Shown in pieces: positions 4,721 through 36,845 of a stretch of DNA of 64,000 nucleotides (the first letter of the stretch is position 1; each line of letters opens with the position of its first letter). A model generated the notes under the pieces. The model made no database searches, was not told the origin of the DNA, and was given only the letters and a program-made list of their open reading frames with translations. Made by a program: the position numbers and the translations under genes. The stretch covers positions 90,054 through 154,053 of the forward strand of contig JAMFRO010000057.1 of NCBI GenBank assembly GCA_026224825.1, in the 5' to 3' direction. Source of the DNA: a bacterium. Its GTDB lineage: Bacteria > Pseudomonadota > Alphaproteobacteria > Acetobacterales > Acetobacteraceae.

Positions 4721-4813
4721 GGAAGCGATTGAAGTCTGGTGGCTTCCTTGGTCTTCAAAACCAATGGCCCGCGAATAGCGGGCGGTGGGTTCGATTCCCA
4801 TCCGCTTCCGCCA
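4721..4813 (+). tRNA. selC: tRNA-Sec (anticodon UCA)
   Basis: The 93-nt sequence folds as a selenocysteine tRNA. The 8-position acceptor arm is GGAAGCGA against CCGCTTCC with a mismatch at the eighth pair. The D-stem is extended to 6 bp (GAAGTC / GGCTTC) with a tiny TGGT loop. The anticodon stem TTGGT/ACCAA carries loop CTTCAAA, so the anticodon TCA is at 4755-4757. A long variable arm GCCCGC-GAATA-GCGGGC and a T-arm with TTCGATT follow, then discriminator G and encoded CCA at 4811-4813. A UCA anticodon reads UGA. It ends 3 bp from the convergent selenoprotein gene and shares the locus with selA, selB and selD. Confidence 0.96.
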
Positions 4814-4816
4814 CTC

Positions 4817-6544
4817 TTATTTTTTCTTGATGCGTTCCTCCCAATCCGCCGGCAGCACGATTTTCTTGGCTGTGGGAAAGCCGAGATAGCCGTTATGCGC
4901 GAAGGTATAGGCGTTGGTGCGCAACGGATCGCCCGAGACCAGCACCATGAAGTCATCCTTGTCGAACACGATCGGCACCATGCGTTGCGGATCGTCGGAT
5001 ACCGCGAAGTCCTTCGGCAATTTGCCGAGATTGACCTGATGCTTCAGCGAGCCGATCGGGAAATCCGCCCATGTTTCCGTATAGGTTTCCACGCGCTCTG
5101 CTGTCATGCGCGCATGGTCGTACAGATATTGTTTCACATCATCCTTGGTCCAGCCTGCGCGCGCGATGGTCTGTGCCAGGATGGGGGTGAGCACGAGTGC
5201 GGGGCGTAAAGTGCCATAGGTGATGCCGCCCACCGTAAAGATGATCTCCCAGCGTGTGCAGGAGGCCACCGCATCGGCGAGATATGGCATGATCTCCTCC
5301 GGTGTGCTGCCGGTGACGGAGACGATGACATTGCCGCTGGTCATGCGCGAGATGGTAACGGTGTTGTCGCCCGTCTCGAACCCCATGTCCGCCGCATTGG
5401 ACGGCCAGCCGGCGGTGGCCAGCGCGTCCTCGTTTTCCGCCAGCACCACACGGAAGGTGTTGCCGAAGCAGCCCTTATCCGTTTTGTGCAAGAGGAAGCC
5501 CGCCATATTGCGCAGGCCCAGGCGCCAGAAGCGGCCGATGGCCGTGTTCGGCTTGAAGCCGTCACGCAGCACGCCCTGCTCGTAGTTAAACTTCAGCTCC
5601 TTGATGATGGGGCCATTCAACACGATGAGCGTCTCCGCCCCAGGCGTATTGCCGCTGTGTTCCACACCATATCCAGGGTCCACCATGGCTTCCGCCAGAG
5701 CGATGAGGATCGGCATGTACTCAGGCTTGCAGCCCGCCATCACGCCATTCACAGCGGTGGCCCAGATGGTGACCGCCCGGCTCGCCGGCAGCACCACACC
5801 GAGGATCTCGTTGGGGTCGCGCGTGGTGTAGCTCAGGAACTGGTTGATCTTCTCGACCGTGGGCGGCACGATGGGCAACCCATCGCTCCACTCGCGCTCG
5901 TAGAAATAATCATTCACCTCCTCGAAACTGCCGCTGAACACGATGTCGCGCGACGCCGGCTCCTCGTCATATTCGATGGTCTCAGGCTGGGTCATCAGAT
6001 TATCGATCACCTGCTTCGCCGTCACGGCGATGACATGGCCGCGCAACTCCTCACTGCTCTGCGCACCGGGATGTCCCATGATCATCGCCAAAGGCAGGTT
6101 CGGCATGCCGAGCCCGACGGAAGTCGCGGCGGCTTGTCCCATGAAACCCTCGCAGGTTAGAGAAGAGGTCGGATAACCGGCTTTTTCACACGCTTCACTG
6201 GCCCGCAGCACGGCGGGCGTACAAGAGCCTCAACAGGCCATGCAGGAGATGGCGGCGTCGACTCCTAATTCTTTGAACCGTTGCGGCAGAGAGGCGAGCA
6301 ACTCGCGCTCATTCACGGTGTGCGTGTTGCCGAACTCGCGCCAGCTCACCCATTTCATGCCCGGATAGATTTTTTTAATCTCTTCTTCCAGCGTGGCGTA
6401 AACCTCGTCGCCCATGAAGAGATAATCCCAGAGCTGGGCAATGGTTTTACCGTTCAGCGTGTCGAGCCGCTTGGCCAGAGGCTGGATTTTCTGGCGCCGC
6501 TCACCGCTGGGCCAGACAACGTCATATTGGGTTTCGCTTGCCAT
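4817..6544 (-). CDS. UGSC-family selenoprotein with in-frame UGA (Sec105)
   Basis: Read through a single UGA at 6230-6232, this minus-strand frame encodes 575 aa without other stops. Residues 98-108 read AAISCMAC-U-GSC, so Sec105 sits in a cysteine-rich C101-xx-C104-U105-GS-C108 motif, the hallmark of the UGSC (seleno)protein family. The part before UGA is 104 aa; the 470 aa after it is in the same frame and would otherwise lack a proper start and ribosome site. An 18-nt hairpin begins 11 nt after the UGA. The start has AGGAGAA about 8 nt upstream, 12 bp after the flavoprotein gene. The N-terminal 190 residues hold the redox motif. The C-terminal part (190-575) I cannot assign; it contains GVEHSGNTPGAETLIVLNGP and FGNTFRVVLAENED. 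Selenium-dependent redox chemistry is inferred; the reaction is unknown. A standard gene caller would report two separate proteins. Confidence 0.92.
6201..6218 (-). promoter_or_regulatory. Candidate bacterial SECIS hairpin downstream of the UGA codon
   Basis: On the minus strand, starting 11 nt after UGA, GCCCGC-CGTGCT-GCGGGC forms a perfect 6-bp stem with a 6-nt apical loop containing GU. Spacing and a GU-bearing apical loop fit the bacterial SECIS bound by the SelB C-terminus. The element lies in coding sequence, as bacterial SECIS elements do. Confidence 0.75.
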
Positions 6545-6556
6545 GAAGAAATTCTC

Positions 6557-7492
6557 CTAGACTGTAAGCTGATCGACTGTAAGCTGACGGAACGCGGCCT
6601 CGGCGGCGCCAACGCCCTCCGCCATGGCCTGAACGATATTACCACCATAGCCGGCACGCACGGCACCAGCCGCAAAAATGCGCGGATGGGATGTGGTGAG
6701 CCCCTCGCCGGTTTTGATATGGCCCGAGGCCTCAAGCATGGAAGCCGGCAGAAAGCCGGTATTGGGGGTAACGCCGATGAAGGGAAACAGCCCGGCGCAA
6801 TCGATATCCGTGCTCTCGCCGGTCTTTACATTGCGCAGGCGCAAACCCTCAACGCCATTCTCACCGAGAATTTCAGTGATCTCGCTATCCCAGATGAAGG
6901 TCACATTATCCCGCGAGGCGATCTTCTCAATATAATCGCGCTTGGCCTTCAGCGGCCCACGGCAGACCATGATGACGCGCTTGCAGATCTTCGCCAGCAC
7001 CAAAGCTTCCTCAACCGCCGCATCGCCACTGCCGGTCACCGCGACATCCTGCCCACGGAAAAACCCGCCATCGCAAGTGGCGCAGCGCGACACGCCACGC
7101 CCGGTAAACTCTTCCTCGCCCGGCACACCGAGTTTTTTCAAGGACGCACCGGAGGCGATGATAATCACCTCAGGCTTGTGCACATGGCCTTCGCCATCGG
7201 TAATGCGGAGCACGGCACCGGTCTCAATCGTCTCAATGCCCGCCTCGATGATCTGCACGGCAGCCTTGCGCGCATCCTCCAGCAGATGGATGGCCAGATC
7301 CTGCCCGGAGAATTTGCCCGGGAGCGGCAGGCCATGCACCTCATCCACCGTGGCGACGAGCCCGCCGAACATATAGCTGCTCTCAAACAGCGTCACGAGC
7401 CGGCCAAGCCGTGCCATATGGCAAGCAGCGGCGAGCCCAGCCAGGCCGCCGCCGATCACCGCCACTTCACAACTATTGCGCAACGGCCGCAT
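6557..7492 (-). CDS. Thioredoxin-reductase-like FAD/NAD(P)-disulfide oxidoreductase
   Basis: 311-aa flavoprotein of the low-molecular-weight thioredoxin reductase (TrxB) fold and length. The FAD-binding VIGGGLAGLAAA is near the N-terminus. The redox-active C-A-T-C pair lies in SRCATCDGGFF (about residues 134-144). The NAD(P)-binding VTGSGDAAVEEA follows, and FAAGAVRAGYGG marks the C-terminal FAD motif. The housekeeping TrxB motif is usually CATCDG with GGGNSA; here it is GSGDAA, a common variant. It sits 2 bp after the TauD-like gene and 12 bp before the selenoprotein gene, so it is the obvious electron donor to Sec105 (inference). The last nine residues QLTVDQLTV come from a 15-nt tandem duplication. 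Confidence 0.88.
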   Translation of the reverse strand: MRPLRNSCEVAVIGGGLAGLAAACHMARLGRLVTLFESSYMFGGLVATVDEVHGLPLPGKFSGQDLAIHLLEDARKAAVQIIEAGIETIETGAVLRITDGEGHVHKPEVIIIASGASLKKLGVPGEEEFTGRGVSRCATCDGGFFRGQDVAVTGSGDAAVEEALVLAKICKRVIMVCRGPLKAKRDYIEKIASRDNVTFIWDSEITEILGENGVEGLRLRNVKTGESTDIDCAGLFPFIGVTPNTGFLPASMLEASGHIKTGEGLTTSHPRIFAAGAVRAGYGGNIVQAMAEGVGAAEAAFRQLTVDQLTV

Positions 7493-7494
7493 CT

Positions 7495-8343
7495 CTAGTT
7501 CGTCGGCTCCAGCCCGGCGATAGAGGTGCGGTGCATGGTACGCCCGCTATCCGCCGGGTAAGGGATCACGCGGTGCAGCGCGCCGCCATTGTCCCAGATG
7601 GCGAGATCGCCCTCTTTCCAGTCATGGCTGTAGCAGAAGCGCGGCTGTGCCGCCCATTCCAGCAGCCGGGCCAGCAAAGCGCGCCCCTCCGCCTTGGACA
7701 TGCCGACGATGTAGTCAGCCGAATAGCCGATCATCAGCGATTTGCGGCCATTCTTGCGCGTCCACACCAGCGGCTGCTCCTGCGCCGCACCGCGCTTCAT
7801 CGGCTCGAGCTGGTCCGGCGATGCCACCTCGCGCACGGCGGCGACAACGCTATGCACCACGCGCAGGTTTTCAATCGCCTTCTTCTCGTCCTCGGGCAAA
7901 GCCTCATAGGCGGCATAGGTATTGCTGAACTGCGTCTGCCCGCCGGTGGGCGAGGTTTTGCGGCTGGACAGCACGGAGGCTTTCGGCACCGGAATGTTGA
8001 TGGTCGCACCATCCATATGCCAGAAGAAGGTGCCGAGCACATATTCCGGCTCCGGATTCTTATCCTTGTCCAGCGTGATCTTATACACATCGCGCGTATC
8101 GGCATCGCCGCCCGGCACGGTGGTGGTAAAGTTTACCCGGGCACCCAGAGCATCGGTAAACGCGAGCTGCTCCTTGTCGCTCAGATTGATCTGCGGGAAG
8201 ATCAGCGCATCATGGATTTCCAGCAGCTCCATGATCCGCTGCGCCACGGCCGGCTCAAAGATCGCATTGCGGTCCACATGCACAACGGCGCCGATCTCCG
8301 GCTTGATAACGTCCACGCGAACGGTGTCGATATTGATATCCAT
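7495..8343 (-). CDS. TauD/TfdA-like Fe(II)/2-oxoglutarate dioxygenase
   Basis: 282 aa. The facial-triad HxD is in FFWHMDGA, the distal His in ALHRVIPY, and an Arg in SGRTMHRTS fits 2-oxoglutarate binding. The usual reaction is hydroxylation of a small substrate with release of succinate and CO2. The ATG at 8341-8343 has AAGGGGAA upstream; a longer reading frame extends into the TetR gene but lacks homology. It lies 2 bp before the flavoprotein gene in the selenoprotein operon. A paralogue at 21979-22806 shares NTYAAY, PLVWT and the same HxD context, so both belong to one TauD subfamily. Substrate unknown. Confidence 0.82.
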   Translation of the reverse strand: MDINIDTVRVDVIKPEIGAVVHVDRNAIFEPAVAQRIMELLEIHDALIFPQINLSDKEQLAFTDALGARVNFTTTVPGGDADTRDVYKITLDKDKNPEPEYVLGTFFWHMDGATINIPVPKASVLSSRKTSPTGGQTQFSNTYAAYEALPEDEKKAIENLRVVHSVVAAVREVASPDQLEPMKRGAAQEQPLVWTRKNGRKSLMIGYSADYIVGMSKAEGRALLARLLEWAAQPRFCYSHDWKEGDLAIWDNGGALHRVIPYPADSGRTMHRTSIAGLEPTN

Positions 8344-8431
8344 GGCGTTCCCCTTTTTTGCTCCGGCTGGCGCGTTGCGGGCCGGCCCGATTGATGCTGA
8401 ACAGTTCATTAGCATCACCGCGCGGCAAAGG

Positions 8432-9022
8432 TCAACCTGGTTCTTGAAACAACTGCAGCGCGTCCTCGACGATGGTGAGCGCTTCCGTATGGCCATCGGT
8501 AAGGCCCAGTGCGGATTCGGAGACGATCATACGCGCCAGCGCCACCGCGATCATCACAATCCCCGCCGCGGCCTTCTGGCTGCCGGCCCGGTGTGCCAGC
8601 AGTCCCGACACAGCCTCGATCTGTAAGGCACGAAACTGCTCGGCGGAGCTGACGATCTCGGCGCGGATGGTTTCGCGATGCGTGGCAATCGCGCTCAGCT
8701 CGCTGGCCACGGCCGCACCTGAGGGATCGCTGTTAAGTTGCCACAGGGCACGCAGGGGCTCAGGCGAGGCCAGCGCCTCCGCGAACCGCGCCATGCGGTT
8801 CTCGTTCACACGCCGCACCAGGGCCAGGATCAGGTCATCCATGGTGCGGAAGTAATAGTACAGGAGCTGCGTCTTAAGCCCGGCCTTCGCCGCCACCTGG
8901 CGGGCGGTGAGTGCGGGCAGGCCTTCATCACGCAGCACCGCCTCGGCCGCGTCTATAAAACGGGCGCGCGTCTGCGAATTCTCCAACCCCAATCTGCGCG
9001 TCTGCGCCACTTCTGTATCCAT
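8432..9022 (-). CDS. TetR family transcriptional regulator
   Basis: 196 aa. The N-terminal TetR helix-turn-helix (about residues 18-65) reads RARFIDAAEAVLRDEGLPAL...VAAKAGLKTQLLYYYF, the classical TetR_N pattern. The ligand domain is unassigned. It is the first gene of the minus-strand string regulator, dioxygenase, flavoprotein, selenoprotein, lying 46 bp after selB and 88 bp before the dioxygenase. It therefore probably controls the selenoprotein operon, which would make selenoprotein synthesis inducible by some substrate (inference). Confidence 0.85.
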   Translation of the reverse strand: MDTEVAQTRRLGLENSQTRARFIDAAEAVLRDEGLPALTARQVAAKAGLKTQLLYYYFRTMDDLILALVRRVNENRMARFAEALASPEPLRALWQLNSDPSGAAVASELSAIATHRETIRAEIVSSAEQFRALQIEAVSGLLAHRAGSQKAAAGIVMIAVALARMIVSESALGLTDGHTEALTIVEDALQLFQEPG

Positions 9023-9068: not shown

Positions 9069-10973
9069 TTAACCATTTTGCGCCGGGGGCAATAGTGCCG
9101 AAACCGCCGCGCTGCCACGGATGCGCCGGTCCGCGATGCGGCGGGTGAAGCGTATGGCGTCCAGATGGTCCAGCAGCGGCATGGAATATTTGCGCGAGAT
9201 GCCCAAAGCCGCCCCTACGTCCGTTGCCAGCAGGCCGGGTGCGCGCTCCAGCAACGGGCTGAGCAGGCGGATGGCGTGCTCCACGGACTCCTGGTGGAAG
9301 AGAATTTCCTTGTCTTTTGCGCGGTCTACGGCGCGGACCAACACGCCTTCACGCAGCAGCCGGTCCACCGCGCGTGAGGCTGCCAGGCTGGTGATGATGC
9401 TCTTGGGGTCGGGCGGGGAGAGCCCCGCGGCGCGGAGCTGGGCGGCGATCTGGGCGGCCAGCCCGGCTTCATCCTGGGCGCGGGCCTGGTCGGCCTCGGC
9501 ACGGGGGAGCAGAATTTTACTCCCGCGCCGGGCGATGCTGTTACGCGCGAGGAGGATCAAAATAGCTTCGTCAAGCACATTTGCGCCGGTGCCGGGCAAG
9601 CAAGCCAGCAATTGCACGCTGGTCAGGCCGTCGGCATGCGGGGCGAGTAGAGGGGGGAGCCGCGCCGCCAGAGCCTGCAAATCCGCTTGGGCGGCCACCA
9701 GCCCGGCGCTGGTGACCAACACCGGATGGGGTTTCAGCAATGCGGCGATATGGGCGGGGGCCAGAGCGGAGAGTTGCGAGAGATGTGTCAGGCTTGTGCC
9801 GGCAGCCCCCTGCGCTTCCACCTCGGCCAGGACCAGCGCTTCGGGCTCCAGCCGGGAGAGGCGCGAGAGACGCTGCAACAGCGGCGCGGAATGGCGGCGC
9901 TGGCGGCGGGTGACGGGCGCGATGATGCGCCCCCCGGCCACGGTCTGCGCCGGGGAGGCCAGGCGCAGGATTAAAAACTCACGGGCGGGGAAGGCGGCCG
10001 CCTCCGCGCAATGCAGTTGGGCAAAACCGGTCTCGCCGGGTTCCAGCACATCGCGGTCGAGCAGGCGCAGCCTCGCGTCGAACTCATCCGTGCCGAGCAG
10101 CGCGCGCAGGCGCATGCCGTTCTTCAAGGGCGGGGCGCTGGAAACGGCGCGGAGCGAGATTGTCAGCCAGTCCGAAGGGGTGAGGCCGGGGGCGGCGAGC
10201 GCCATGCCACGGTGCAGATCGGCGATGTCGATGTCGCGCAGGTTCAGAGCCACGCGCTGGCCGGGGGCGGCTGCCTCCACGCGCTGCCCGTGGATCTGCA
10301 CCGCCCGCACCCGTACCTGTTTGCGGGCGGGGAAAAGCTCAAGCGTGTCTCCAGCGCTGACAGCAGCGCCGCGCAAGGTGCCGGTGACCACCGGACCATG
10401 CCCGGCGATGGAGAAGGCGCGGTCGATGGGCAGGAACGGCAGGCCGAAGCTGGGGCGGGGTTCCTGGCTGCCGGCCAGGCTGGCGAGGGCATGGCGCAAT
10501 TCCTCAATGCCCTGCGCGCGCAATGCCGAGGTGAACACCGGCGGCAGGGGCAAAAAACCGGCTTTTGTGAGCAGCTCCATGGCCTCATCCGCGACCATCT
10601 GCGCCTCTTCGGGCGGCACCAGATCGGCCTTGCTTATGGCCACCACGGCACGGCGCAGGCCGAGCAAGCCGGCGATGTCGATATGCTCGATGGTTTGCGG
10701 TTTTATCCCCTCATTGGCGGCCAGCACCAGCAGCACGGCATCAATGCCGGTGGCCCCGGCGATCATGGTGCGGATAAAACGCTCATGGCCGGGCATGTCG
10801 ATGAGGTCGATTTCGGCGGTTGGGGTATGCAGCTTGGCGAAGCCCAGGGCGATGGAGATTCCACGCGCTTTTTCCTCGGCCAGCCGGTCGGTCTCCTCCC
10901 CCGTGAGGGCGCGGACCAGCGCGGTCTTACCATGGTCGACATGGCCGATGACGCCGACGACCAGGTTTTTCAC
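9069..10973 (-). CDS. selB: Selenocysteine-specific translation elongation factor SelB
   Basis: 634-aa translational GTPase, the normal SelB length. G1 is GHVDHGKTALVRAL, G3 is DMPGHERFI, and G4 appears as SKADL. Domains II-III follow (VTGTLRGAAVSAGD). The C-terminal third holds winged-helix repeats, ending with AALGISRKYSMPLLDHLD, the RNA-binding winged helix that recognises SECIS. SelB delivers Sec-tRNA-Sec to UGA. The GTG start overlaps the selA stop (GTGA), giving translational coupling. Confidence 0.95.
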   Translation of the reverse strand: MKNLVVGVIGHVDHGKTALVRALTGEETDRLAEEKARGISIALGFAKLHTPTAEIDLIDMPGHERFIRTMIAGATGIDAVLLVLAANEGIKPQTIEHIDIAGLLGLRRAVVAISKADLVPPEEAQMVADEAMELLTKAGFLPLPPVFTSALRAQGIEELRHALASLAGSQEPRPSFGLPFLPIDRAFSIAGHGPVVTGTLRGAAVSAGDTLELFPARKQVRVRAVQIHGQRVEAAAPGQRVALNLRDIDIADLHRGMALAAPGLTPSDWLTISLRAVSSAPPLKNGMRLRALLGTDEFDARLRLLDRDVLEPGETGFAQLHCAEAAAFPAREFLILRLASPAQTVAGGRIIAPVTRRQRRHSAPLLQRLSRLSRLEPEALVLAEVEAQGAAGTSLTHLSQLSALAPAHIAALLKPHPVLVTSAGLVAAQADLQALAARLPPLLAPHADGLTSVQLLACLPGTGANVLDEAILILLARNSIARRGSKILLPRAEADQARAQDEAGLAAQIAAQLRAAGLSPPDPKSIITSLAASRAVDRLLREGVLVRAVDRAKDKEILFHQESVEHAIRLLSPLLERAPGLLATDVGAALGISRKYSMPLLDHLDAIRFTRRIADRRIRGSAAVSALLPPAQNG

Positions 10974-12325
10974 CCCAGCGCCGCCTTCAGCGCTTCGGCC
11001 AACACGGGAAGTTCGGCATCGGTGACGGCCAGCATGTCGAGCAGCAAACGGCCCTCGCTGATACGGCCGATGACGGCGGGGGTTTGCGCGCGCAAGGCGG
11101 CGGCCAGATGATCCGCCCCGCCGGGCAGCTTTAGGGCAACGGCCCAGCTTTCGATCCGCTCCTCAGGCAAAGAGCCGCCACCCGCGAAGGCTTCCGTGCG
11201 CTCCAACGCGCCAATGCCGAGGAGGGTGAGCAGAGATTCGGCGCGGCGTTGTAAGGTGCCGCTGCTCTGCCGCAGCATGGCGTACACAGGCACGCGCTCG
11301 GGCGTGTCCCGATGCAGCAGCAACGTCGCTTCCAGGGCGGCGAGGGACATTTTATCCAGCCGCACGGCGCGCAGCAGCGGGTGGGTGCGGATGCGGTCGA
11401 GGGCGGATTCTTTGCCCAATATGAGCCCGGCCTGCGGGCCGCCTAAAAGCTTGTCGCCACTGCAGGTGACGAGATCCGCCCCCGCCGCGAGGGCCTGGGA
11501 CAAGGTTGGTTCGGGGCTTCCCGGGGTTTCATGCAGCAGGCCGCTGCCGAGATCTGCCACCACCAGCAGGTTTTTGCTCCGGGCAAGCTGGGCAAGTTCC
11601 CCGATGGGGGTTTCCGCCGTGAAGCCGATGGTCCGGAAGTTACTCTGGTGCACTTTCAGCAATACGCGGGTCTCGGGGGTGATGGCGGCGCGGTAATCGG
11701 CCAGGCGGGTTTTGTTGGTGGCACCCACCTCCACCAGTTTTGCCCCGCCCTGGCGGATGACATCGGGCACACGGAAACCGCCGCCGATTTCCACCAGTTC
11801 GCCGCGCGAGACGATGACTTCGCCTCCATCGCTGAGCGCGCTCAGGGCCAGGAGGATGGCGGCGGCACCATTGTTCACGGCCAAAGCGGCTTCGGCGCCG
11901 GTCAGTTCGCGGAGCAAATTCTCCAGGGAATGAGTGCGCGAGCCGCGTTTGCCGGTGGAGAGGTCGAATTCGAGGTTGCAATAGCCGCGCGCGACATCCT
12001 CGACGGCTGCGATGGCCTCGGCGGCCAGCGGGGCGCGGCCGAGATTGGTGTGCAGCACGATGCCGGTGGCGTTAATGGCGCGGCGCAGGCCAAGCCGGCT
12101 GCGGAGGGATAATTTTGCGCCGGCACGGGCCAGGAGGGACTGCCTATCGGGGATTTCAGTCAGGCTACCGGCGGTGATCTGCGTGCGTAATGCGGCGAGA
12201 TCGTCACGCAGGACATTGATGAGGCAAGTGCGGCCATATTCCGTGCAGAGTGCATCGGCTTCGGATGATTCAAGGAGCTTCTGCACCTGCGGCAGGTCGC
12301 GGAGCAGGTTTTTGCTCATCGGCAT
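10970..12325 (-). CDS. selA: L-seryl-tRNA(Sec) selenium transferase SelA
   Basis: 451-aa PLP enzyme converting Ser-tRNA-Sec to Sec-tRNA-Sec with selenophosphate. Diagnostic stretches are RRAINATGIVLHTNLGRAPL, YCNLEFDLSTGKRGSR, NNGAAAILLALSAL and the PLP-lysine segment SGDKLLGGPQAG. The ATG at 12323-12325 follows GGGGAGG about 7 nt upstream; an upstream extension to 12391 would reach into the direct-repeat region and is unlikely. It is first in the selA-selB operon and divergent from selD. Confidence 0.95.
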   Translation of the reverse strand: MPMSKNLLRDLPQVQKLLESSEADALCTEYGRTCLINVLRDDLAALRTQITAGSLTEIPDRQSLLARAGAKLSLRSRLGLRRAINATGIVLHTNLGRAPLAAEAIAAVEDVARGYCNLEFDLSTGKRGSRTHSLENLLRELTGAEAALAVNNGAAAILLALSALSDGGEVIVSRGELVEIGGGFRVPDVIRQGGAKLVEVGATNKTRLADYRAAITPETRVLLKVHQSNFRTIGFTAETPIGELAQLARSKNLLVVADLGSGLLHETPGSPEPTLSQALAAGADLVTCSGDKLLGGPQAGLILGKESALDRIRTHPLLRAVRLDKMSLAALEATLLLHRDTPERVPVYAMLRQSSGTLQRRAESLLTLLGIGALERTEAFAGGGSLPEERIESWAVALKLPGGADHLAAALRAQTPAVIGRISEGRLLLDMLAVTDAELPVLAEALKAALG

Positions 12326-12370
12326 ATATCGGCCTCCCCTACGGCAAACTTGTTGGTTCTTTTCGTGTGA

Positions 12371-12415
12371 TGCTAGGGATGCGTACAGCATCCAATGCTA
12401 AGGATGCGTACAGCA
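12371..12415. repeat. Tandem 20-bp direct repeats in the selA/selD divergent promoter region
   Basis: TGCTAGGGATGCGTACAGCA (12371-12390) and TGCTAAGGATGCGTACAGCA (12396-12415) differ at one base and are spaced by 5 bp. They lie midway between the divergent selA and selD starts. They may be paired regulator sites or a simple duplication. A GGATGC-GTACA-GCATCC hairpin (12377-12393) is embedded. Confidence 0.7.
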
Positions 12416-12445: not shown

Positions 12446-13504
12446 ATGGCGGATCAGGACGTCAGGCTGACATCATTAGCGCATGGCGGCGGCTGCGGCT
12501 GCAAGCTCTCGCCCGCCGTACTGCGCGAGCTACTGTCCGGCATGCCGGCGGCGGCGGCGTTTCCGGATCTGCTGGTGGGCATCGAGACCGGGGATGACGC
12601 GGCGGTGTACCGGATCAACGATACCCAGGCGGTGGTGGCGACCACGGATTTCTTCATGCCGATCGTCGATGACCCGTATGATTTCGGGCGGATCGCGGCG
12701 GCGAACGCGCTCTCGGATGTGTATGCCATGGGCGGCAAGCCGATTCTGGCACTGGCGATTCTGGGCATGCCTTTGGGCAAGATCAGCAATGAGACCGTGC
12801 GCGCCATATTGGCGGGCGGCGCCTCGATATGCGCCGAGGCGGGCATCCCCGTGGCGGGCGGGCACTCCATTGATGCGCCGGAGCCGATTTACGGGCTTGC
12901 GGTGATCGGGCTGGTGAACCCGGACCGGGTGCTGCGCAATACCGGGGCGCAACCAGGCGATGCTCTTATTCTAAGCAAAGGGCTGGGGGTTGGGGTGATC
13001 AGCGCGGCGTTGAAAAAGGCCGAGCTGCCGCCGGAACAGGACCGCGCGCTATACGCGACGCTGGTTGATTCCACGACGCGGCTGAATGCCGTGGGGCATA
13101 CGCTGGCGGCGATCCCGGAGGTGCATGCGGTGACGGATGTGACCGGGTTTGGCCTGCTGGGGCATGGATTAGAAATGTGCCGGGGCTCGGGGCTGACGGC
13201 GCGGATAAAATTTGCCGATCTGCCGTTGCTGGAGGGCGTGGCCGCGTTGGCGCAGGTGCCCTACCGCACCGGGGCAGCGGTGCGGAACTGGGAGAGCTAT
13301 GGCCATGAGGTGGTGCTGGGCGCTGCCGTGCAAGAGTGGCAGCGCGATGTGCTGGCGGACCCGCAAACCAGCGGCGGGCTGCTTATTGCCGTGGCGCCGG
13401 CGGGGGTTGAGGCGGTTCTGGCGCAATTGCGCGATGCTGGTTTTGCAGCCGCGGCGGTCGTCGGCGGCATGGAAGAGGGACCGCCGCAAATGCACGTTAG
13501 CTGA
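12446..13504 (+). CDS. selD: Selenide, water dikinase SelD (selenophosphate synthetase)
   Basis: 352 aa. It makes selenophosphate from selenide and ATP, the selenium donor for SelA. The N-terminal catalytic loop reads [14 protein letters not shown], with Cys at the position that is Sec in some SelD proteins, then the catalytic Lys. Downstream signatures are [35 protein letters not shown] and [13 protein letters not shown]. The start has GGAGGAGCAAAACT upstream. It is divergent from selA, and its 3' end overlaps the convergent esterase gene by 8 bp. Confidence 0.95.
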
Positions 13505-34586: not shown

Positions 34587-36845
34587 ATGCCATCTAAACG
34601 CAGCGTACCAGGCGTAAAACCTTATAATAGCGCCGCCGGCGGCTGGGGGGCGTTGCGGGCCACGGCCATTGCCGTGCGCGAGCAGATGGAGCTGAGCGAG
34701 GCGCCGCTGCTGCTGTACCGGACCAATAAGCCGGCGGGGTTCGACTGCCCGGGCTGCGCCTGGCCGGATAAGGCACATACATCGACCTTTCAGTTTTGCG
34801 AGAATGGCGCCAAGGCGGTGACCTGGGAGGCGACCAAGAAGCGGGTGACGCCGGAATTTTTTGGCCGCCATACGGTGGCGGAGCTGCTGGGCTGGACGGA
34901 CCATGATCTGGAGGACGAGGGGCGGCTGACGCACCCCATGGCCTATGATGCAGCCAGCGACACTTACCAGCCGGTGGAATGGGATGAGGCGTTTGCGCGG
35001 ATAGGGGCGGTGCTGCGCGCGCTCCCCAGTGCGAATGCGGCGGAATTTTATACCTCGGGCCGGGCCTCCAATGAGGCGGCGTTTTTATACCAGTTGTTTG
35101 CGCGGGAATATGGGACCAATAATTTTCCCGATTGCTCGAACATGTGCCATGAGGCAACCAGTCAGGGACTGCCGAAATCCATCGGGATTGGCAAAGGCAC
35201 TGTGTCTCTCGATGATTTTGACCATTGCGAGATGATCATCGCGATTGGGCATAATCCGGGGACCAACCATCCGCGCATGATGGGGACGCTGCATGAGGTG
35301 TCCAGGCGGGGGGTACCGATTATCGTGTTCAACCCGCTGAAGGAGCGGGCGCTGGAGCGGTTTACCGACCCGCAGAACCCCGTGGAGATGGCGAGCATGG
35401 GCTCGACGCCGATTGCTTCGTCCTACTACCAGGTGAAGGTGGGCGGGGATGCGGCGGCGCTGAAGGGGATATGTAAGGCGCTGCTGGCGCTGAATGCGCT
35501 GGACCATGGGTTTATCGCTGAGCATACCAATGGGTTTGCGGCATTTGCGGCGGATCTGGCGGCGACGGGTTGGGCGGAGATTGAGGCGGCCAGCGGGCTG
35601 GGCCGGGCCGCACTTGAGAGTGTTGCGGCGGCTTACGCGAAGTCCAATGCCACCATCGTGAGCTATGGCATGGGGGTGACGCAACACAGCAAGGGCACGG
35701 CGACGGTGCAGCAGATTGCAAACCTGCTGCTGCTGCGCGGGAATTTCGGGAAACCGGGGGCGGGGATTTGCCCCCTGCGCGGGCATTCCAATGTGCAGGG
35801 CGACCGTACAGTGGGGATTAACGAGAAGCCGGGCGATGCGCTGCTGGAGGGGATTGAGAAGCGCTTTGGCTTTGCCCCGCCCCGGGCGCATGGGCATGAT
35901 GCGGTGGCGGCGATGCAGGCGATTGTGGCGGGAGAATCCAAGGTGCTGGTGGCGCTGGGCGGGAACCTGGCCGTGGCGATGCCGGACCCGGAACAATGTT
36001 TCGCGGCAATGCGCAAGCTGGATCTGGCGGTGCATATCGCCACGAAATTGAACAGGTCGCATTTGCTGATCGGCAAGGAGTCGATTTTGCTGCCGTGTTT
36101 GGGGCGGACGGAGCTGGATGTGCAGGCTACCGGTGTGCAATCCATTACGGTTGAAGATTCCATGACGATGGTTCATGCCTCGGCGGGGAAATTGCCGCCG
36201 GCGTCTGAACATCTGCGCTCCGAGCCGGCGATTGTGGCGGGGATGGCGAAGGCGACGCTGCCGGGCAGCAAGGTTGATTGGGCGGGGCTGGTGGCGGATT
36301 ATGATTTGATCCGCAATGACATCGAGGCGGTGTTCCCGGATTTCAAGGATTATAATGAGCGTATCCGTGTGCCCGGCGGGTTCCGGCTGCCGCTGCCCCC
36401 GACGGAGCGGGTGTGGAAGACGGATTCGGGCAAGGCTGAGTTTCTGGTGCTGGCGGGGGTGGAGATCGATCCGCCGGTGAGTGCGGCAGCACCTTTCCGG
36501 CTGACGACAATTCGCAGCCATGACCAGTATAATACCACGATTTATGGGCTGGACGACCGGTATCGCGGTGTGTTCGGCAGGCGGGATGTGGTGTTCATGA
36601 ACCGGGATGATCTGGCGGCGCAGGGGCTGGAGCATGGCGATGTCGTGGATATAGAGGCGGTGCTGCCACAGACGGCGCGGCGGCTGAGCGGGTTTACCGT
36701 GATTGCCTATGATATCGCAGCCGGTTCCGTGGCGGCTTATTATCCGGAGGCGAATGTGCTGGTGCCGCTGGATTATTTTGATGCGCAGAGTGGGACGCCT
36801 TCGTATAAATCCGTGCCGGTGAAAATATCCCGGGCGGCGGCGTGA
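34587..36845 (+). CDS. FdhF/YdeP-family molybdopterin oxidoreductase
   Basis: 752 aa. The N-terminus has FDCPGCAWPD (two Cys), not the four-Cys [4Fe-4S] ligand set of true formate dehydrogenase H. The molybdenum-ligand region is NFPDCSNMCHEATSQGLPK, with Cys where FdhF carries Sec, so it is not a selenoprotein. The MGD-binding stretches AIGHNPGTNHPRMM and ALGGNLAVAMPDP and the C-terminal molydop-binding domain (HDQYNTTIYGLDDRYRG) place it in the YdeP group, whose substrate is unsettled. The ATG at 34587 has GGAGGAT 9 nt upstream. First gene of an operon with mobB, mobA and fdhD. Confidence 0.87.
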   Translation: MPSKRSVPGVKPYNSAAGGWGALRATAIAVREQMELSEAPLLLYRTNKPAGFDCPGCAWPDKAHTSTFQFCENGAKAVTWEATKKRVTPEFFGRHTVAELLGWTDHDLEDEGRLTHPMAYDAASDTYQPVEWDEAFARIGAVLRALPSANAAEFYTSGRASNEAAFLYQLFAREYGTNNFPDCSNMCHEATSQGLPKSIGIGKGTVSLDDFDHCEMIIAIGHNPGTNHPRMMGTLHEVSRRGVPIIVFNPLKERALERFTDPQNPVEMASMGSTPIASSYYQVKVGGDAAALKGICKALLALNALDHGFIAEHTNGFAAFAADLAATGWAEIEAASGLGRAALESVAAAYAKSNATIVSYGMGVTQHSKGTATVQQIANLLLLRGNFGKPGAGICPLRGHSNVQGDRTVGINEKPGDALLEGIEKRFGFAPPRAHGHDAVAAMQAIVAGESKVLVALGGNLAVAMPDPEQCFAAMRKLDLAVHIATKLNRSHLLIGKESILLPCLGRTELDVQATGVQSITVEDSMTMVHASAGKLPPASEHLRSEPAIVAGMAKATLPGSKVDWAGLVADYDLIRNDIEAVFPDFKDYNERIRVPGGFRLPLPPTERVWKTDSGKAEFLVLAGVEIDPPVSAAAPFRLTTIRSHDQYNTTIYGLDDRYRGVFGRRDVVFMNRDDLAAQGLEHGDVVDIEAVLPQTARRLSGFTVIAYDIAAGSVAAYYPEANVLVPLDYFDAQSGTPSYKSVPVKISRAAA

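Follow-up and report, generated by a model that had tools for sequence, protein, structure and literature searches.

UGSC selenoproteins were described in 2008 by Zhang and Gladyshev. Both the selenoprotein family and a fusion of UGSC with a domain called Unknown_1 have been known in print since then (PMC2398784). A table in that paper gives 255 selenocysteine (Sec) and 21 Cys forms of the family, a thioredoxin (Trx)-like fold is supposed for UGSC, and the domains fused to it are said to contain conserved Cys residues (PMC2398784). The family is also listed in reviews of 2022 and 2026, the relevant passages of which give no function for it (PMC9312934, PMC13188914), and UGSC enzymology is absent from the titles of the literature we found on UGSC selenoproteins. 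No link from UGSC to PrdB is made in the UGSC passages of these three papers or in the PrdB passages of PMC13188914. Here we describe a predicted selenoprotein gene of the UGSC fusion type, found in a 64,000-nucleotide stretch of a genome of the family Acetobacteraceae (assembly GCA_026224825.1, contig JAMFRO010000057.1, positions 90,054 to 154,053), hereafter the window. We suggest that its product is related to the proline and glycine reductase B proteins, PrdB and GrdB.

The UGSC fusion gene is located at 4817..6544 on the minus strand of the window, with an ATG at 6544-6542 and a TAA stop at 4819-4817. The initial annotation joined two open reading frames (ORFs) through an in-frame UGA into one frame of 575 residues, and the coordinates hold. 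An upstream ORF of 104 amino acids (aa), running from 6544 to 6230, and a downstream ORF of 464 aa with a GTG start, running from 6211 to 4817, share the same phase, and the joined frame contains a single UGA (6230..6232), at residue 105. The number of codons between the UGA and the second frame is six and not seven as counted earlier (104+1+6+464=575). The residues around the UGA read C-M-A-C-U-G-S-C in the joined translation, as had been noted, and the family name assigned from this motif is correct by the match to Pfam PF24696. By eye, AGGAG is seen nine bases 5' of the ATG of the first frame, and no sequence resembling a ribosome site at normal spacing is seen before the GTG of the second, which agrees with the annotation.

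We consider it strongly supported, from sequence comparison, that this UGA is read as Sec and that the gene encodes a selenoprotein. The codon of residue 105 is TGA in 103/103 matched UGSC-half stretches, with conserved sequence on both sides of it (alignment A2). These stretches come from 92 of 109 loci, the remaining 17 holding the C-terminal domain only, and include the copy in the window as well as one likely duplicate pair (L002/L049). The named loci, 79 in all, were retrieved with two C-terminal peptide patterns, from the best 80 in that listing, and the UGA was thus not a selection criterion. Because an identical UGA is found at an identical place in every one of the 103 gene copies, it is predicted to be read as Sec. 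The initial annotation proposed looking for orthologues with Cys in place of Sec, and these were found: among the best 120 of 5093 matches to the Cys form P0017, all 11 full-length homologues without a stop have Cys at residue 105.

A bacterial Sec insertion sequence (bSECIS) is expected just downstream of the UGA, and a predicted bSECIS hairpin is located there, at 6192..6225 on the minus strand. The upper stem, GCCCGC/GCGGGC (6218-6213 with 6206-6201), begins 11 nt after the UGA, where the initial annotation had placed a GC stem-loop; it encloses the loop CGUGCU (6212-6207) and is followed by a weaker lower stem (6225-6219 with 6198-6192). The GTG start of the second frame falls inside the loop. 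Synonymous entropy was computed on 85 aligned Sec genes with 445 scored codons. Within the gene, synonymous sites vary least in codons 109-116, which make up the upper stem and loop, at 0.32 of background entropy versus 0.89 for the median window of codons. GCC111, GTG112 and CGG114 are invariant in 85/85 Sec genes despite the existence of synonymous alternatives. An Rfam scan of the window gave tRNA-Sec as the only family above its cut-off. The selenoprotein reading of the initial annotation is therefore supported at sequence level by the conserved UGA, the Cys homologues, the frozen synonymous codons and a complete sel gene set, described below.

The UGSC domain comprises residues 8-183 (5996..6523, minus strand) and matches PF24696 on both sides of the UGA with 87.9 bits (gathering cut-off 25, E=1.1e-24). 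The match to NCBIfam NF041046 (UGSC family (seleno)protein) reaches 33.9 bits and is below the cut-off of 125 bits, so the fusion was assigned to PF24696 only. A structure model of the domain (pLDDT 89.7) predicts a parallel alpha/beta fold, with Sec ending a strand before the helix 108-121, and no Trx chain is present among the 50 structure matches (VIA) listed for it. The C-terminal domain comprises residues 194-575 (4820..5965, minus strand) and contains a near-invariant Cys272 (codon 5729..5731, minus strand). This residue is Cys in 85/85 Sec genes, in 49/49 rows of alignment A2 and in 11/11 Cys-coded homologues, and it is kept in the aligned stand-alone relatives of the domain except L028, which has Ala. 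Three further cysteines are found near the Sec (all codons on the minus strand). Cys108, ending the UxxC motif (6221..6223), is present in 85/85 Sec genes and 11/11 Cys-coded homologues. Cys104, adjoining the Sec (6233..6235), is found in 81/85 Sec genes versus 1/11 Cys-coded homologues, and Cys131 (6152..6154) in 70/85 versus 1/11. The distribution of Cys104 and Cys131 is consistent with these residues resolving a selenium intermediate.

The possible link to PrdB and GrdB comes from a profile comparison. Comparing UGSC with a PrdB/GrdB-like profile by hhalign gave E=4.4e-6 and a probability of 86.7, with UxxC aligned on UxxC; a control with one alignment of short-chain dehydrogenases/reductases (SDRs) gave E=0.45 and 0.033. 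The four scanned members of the PrdB/GrdB-like set all match the PrdB model TIGR04483, with E-values from 1.8e-26 to 1.9e-36 and scores under the model cut-off. A sub-threshold Gly_reductase row (E=0.087) was obtained for one of four UGSC pieces, and the 575-residue protein (P0001) gave no PrdB or GrdB model row at E<=0.01. It should be noted that 15 PrdB/GrdB-like loci (L110-L124), found in other genomes of the class, have a TGA stop in UxxC in 12 cases and Cys in two. Judged by their sequences, these loci are likely to be unrecognised selenoproteins too.

Directly upstream of the UGSC gene, with a gap of 12 bp, is a gene for a thioredoxin-reductase (TrxR)-like flavoprotein with a CATC motif (6557..7492, minus strand; TIGR01292 E=2.2e-70). 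At E<=1e-20 the protein matches 44 solved sequences, all of which carry the name thioredoxin reductase or AhpF. A TrxR-like gene is linked to the fusion in 22/79 named loci. It is upstream and on the same strand in 15/15 nearest loci (L031-L045), with gaps of -4 to 688 bp, and downstream in six others, within 41 bp in L046, L052, L057 and L073 and at 1.3-1.4 kb in L049 and L091; L085 is a further locus with such a relative. As the gene pair is kept in two orders, the UGSC fusion and the flavoprotein are suggested to be functionally tied.

Based on these observations, we propose that the 575-residue protein, with UGA105 read as Sec, is likely a reductase of the PrdB/GrdB type that would be re-reduced by the upstream TrxR-like flavoprotein, and we give this reading a probability of roughly 0.6. 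In brief, Sec-tRNA would be made by SelA, SelD and tRNA-Sec, and SelB would bind the hairpin and insert Sec at the UGA. The selenolate, positioned where a helix begins, could attack a small organic substrate, and the resulting selenium adduct may be resolved by one of Cys104, Cys108 and Cys131. The flavoprotein would then bring the selenium back to the selenol form, drawing electrons from a pyridine nucleotide, and the C-terminal domain with its Cys272 might hold the substrate or relay electrons. The profile link and the neighbouring flavoprotein together make this a concrete hypothesis that can be tested. For GrdB-like enzymes, fluoroacetate reduction suggests that the substrate range is broad (PMC10838667).

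Several observations weigh against the proposed selenium-dependent reductase. The link to PrdB/GrdB is a single profile comparison over 95 columns of small alignments, and in the Pfam scan none of the four UGSC pieces gave a GRDB (PF07355) row at E<=10. Pfam gave no match to the C-terminal domain, and the structure comparison did not clearly match it to any fold. The flavoprotein scores 236.8 bits against TIGR01292, under the equivalog cut-off of 343.45, and a TrxR-like gene was not detected in 57/79 loci, some of them on short contigs. Shared ancestry may instead explain the Cys104/Cys131 contrast, since the Cys-coded set is small. The folding energy of the hairpin is ordinary relative to shuffled sequences (z=-0.13), and its covariation, judged from pair counts, is weak and contributes little, as the stem is nearly invariant. 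As the folding energy alone is not unusual, the support for the hairpin is its nucleotide conservation. Finally, the related copy at locus L011 carries a TAA in addition to the TGA.

The strongest competing explanation accepts the selenoprotein and sees in it a general thiol or peroxide oxidoreductase serving in oxidative stress, not a PrdB/GrdB-type enzyme of reductive cleavage. The TrxR-like partner gene would suit such a protein too, and so would the Trx-like fold supposed for UGSC in 2008 (PMC2398784), whereas the fold predicted here is a parallel alpha/beta one. Relatives of the C-terminal domain point in the same direction as the partner gene: they are either fused to UGSC or stand alone, and many of the latter are joined to a thioredoxin-like region. 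A CPTC, CATC or CHTC region, identified by eye, is found N-terminal to the domain in 13/17 extracted stand-alone relatives (L012-L028); eight such relatives were scanned and scored weakly against thioredoxin families, under the cut-offs. We regard a general oxidoreductase as possible and as clearly less probable than the PrdB/GrdB-type reductase.

It is very improbable that the UGA is a true stop, in which case a short UGSC half from the N-terminal side and a separate protein of 464 residues, begun at the GTG at 6211, would be made. In favor of two proteins, 109 of the 120 nearest database proteins begin at this GTG, which is codon 112 (ten begin further in, and one is a full-length Cys form), and stand-alone C-terminal domains do exist. 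However, this GTG is part of the conserved hairpin loop (6207-6212) and lacks a ribosome site at normal spacing as judged by eye, the 11 Cys-coded homologues run through the site without a break, and the UGSC Pfam domain extends across the UGA. All 85 Sec genes have GTG as codon 112, and each UGSC half matched in the DNA of the loci is upstream and bears the UGA; for these reasons the codon-112 starts look like artefacts of gene callers. According to the initial annotation, homologues sharing one internal start would argue against a selenoprotein. Such homologues make up most of the 120 nearest records as annotated, but this does not hold for the DNA, where the UGSC half with its UGA precedes the start. 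A systematic database error is thereby explained, as records that open at codon 112 lose the selenium half. Several public metagenome bins with the fusion gene (L061, L065, L067 and others) are titled Bordetella parapertussis, and these names look doubtful. The copy at L036 is that of Novosphingobium sp. MW5, which is probably an isolate.

A pseudogene or sequencing error as the origin of the UGA, which a lone in-frame stop in one assembly would resemble and which the extra TAA of L011 might recall, is refuted by the identical codon at the identical place in 103/103 stretches from many assemblies and by the frozen synonymous codons behind it.

The genes needed for Sec insertion surround the fusion gene. 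The selC gene, encoding tRNA-Sec (UCA), is located at 4721..4813 on the plus strand, convergent with the UGSC gene and 3 bp from its stop. On the minus strand are selB (9069..10973; TIGR00475 301.9 bits, cut-off 242.25) and selA (10970..12391; TIGR00474 518.2 bits, cut-off 267.9), followed by selD on the plus strand (12446..13504; TIGR00476 422.7 bits, cut-off 125). All four are within 8.8 kb, in line with the 9 kb given in the initial annotation. Across the 79 named loci, selB was found in 15 (eight at 59-69% identity and seven at 31-33%), selA in seven and selD in five, and tRNA-Sec was found in 5/60 loci scanned. The tRNA-Sec gene is also right behind the fusion gene, and convergent with it, in L031, L032 and L033. 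Between the TrxR-like gene and selB, at 7495-9022, the window encodes a TauD-family dioxygenase and a TetR regulator, relatives of which recur in L031 and L041. Within approximately 4.5 kb of the 79 copies we found TctC-type receptors (45), SDRs (27), stand-alone relatives of the C-terminal domain (20) and family III CoA-transferases (16). These are raw counts, and some of the lineages concerned are rich in TctC receptors. In L072, L075, L081 and L090, the fusion gene is followed just downstream by another UGSC gene, with a single domain and a TGA, beside a stand-alone relative of the C-terminal domain, and in L075, L081 and L090 a distant selB is next.

We searched the genome containing the window for selenoprotein clients of the UGSC, Fdh-alpha, Prx, CMD and GRDB families. 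The UGSC family gave one match, with one TGA, and no in-frame stop was found inside the matches to Fdh-alpha (6 stretches), Prx (9) or CMD (12); PF07355 had no match in this genome. A formate-dehydrogenase-alpha-like match at 34911-36827 in the window is under the family cut-off and is free of in-frame stops. The fusion is present in 3/120 genomes of the taxonomic family, this one included, and SelA in 40/120, among them all three with the fusion. One other congeneric species in the sample has neither the fusion nor SelA. It is plausible that the fusion was gained by transfer. More tentatively, and with the odds against it, we speculate that selD, selA, selB, the flavoprotein gene, the UGSC fusion and selC could form a transferable, nearly self-sufficient Sec cassette with a single client. 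The client would be a PrdB/GrdB-class reductase that consists of one chain and occurs outside the clostridia, is served by a flavoprotein of its own and acts on a new class of substrate.

Compared with known systems, the protein shares with the UGSC family as described in 2008 (PMC2398784) the UGSC motif with a UGA as its first codon, the existence of Cys homologues and a score above the PF24696 gathering cut-off. It differs in missing the NF041046 cut-off and probably in its fold, which is predicted to be parallel alpha/beta where a Trx-like one had been supposed. Like the UGSC/Unknown_1 fusion (PMC2398784, Figure S1A), it joins UGSC to a domain of unknown function, and the second domain is likely to be Unknown_1. 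The neighboring flavoprotein resembles thioredoxin reductase in its Pyr_redox_2 match and CATC motif, and departs from TIGR01292 in falling under the equivalog cut-off and in having a gene that adjoins the UGSC fusion. With PrdB (TIGR04483) and glycine reductase selenoprotein B (PF07355) the fusion shares a UxxC at the same place in the alignable segment and a similar E-x-x-G-x-P-T stretch after it; unlike them it lacks a Pfam GRDB match and carries an extra C-terminal domain of 380 residues. New relative to the family known since 2008 are the PrdB/GrdB profile link, the linked TrxR-like flavoprotein, the Sec-associated cysteines and the cause of the misannotation.
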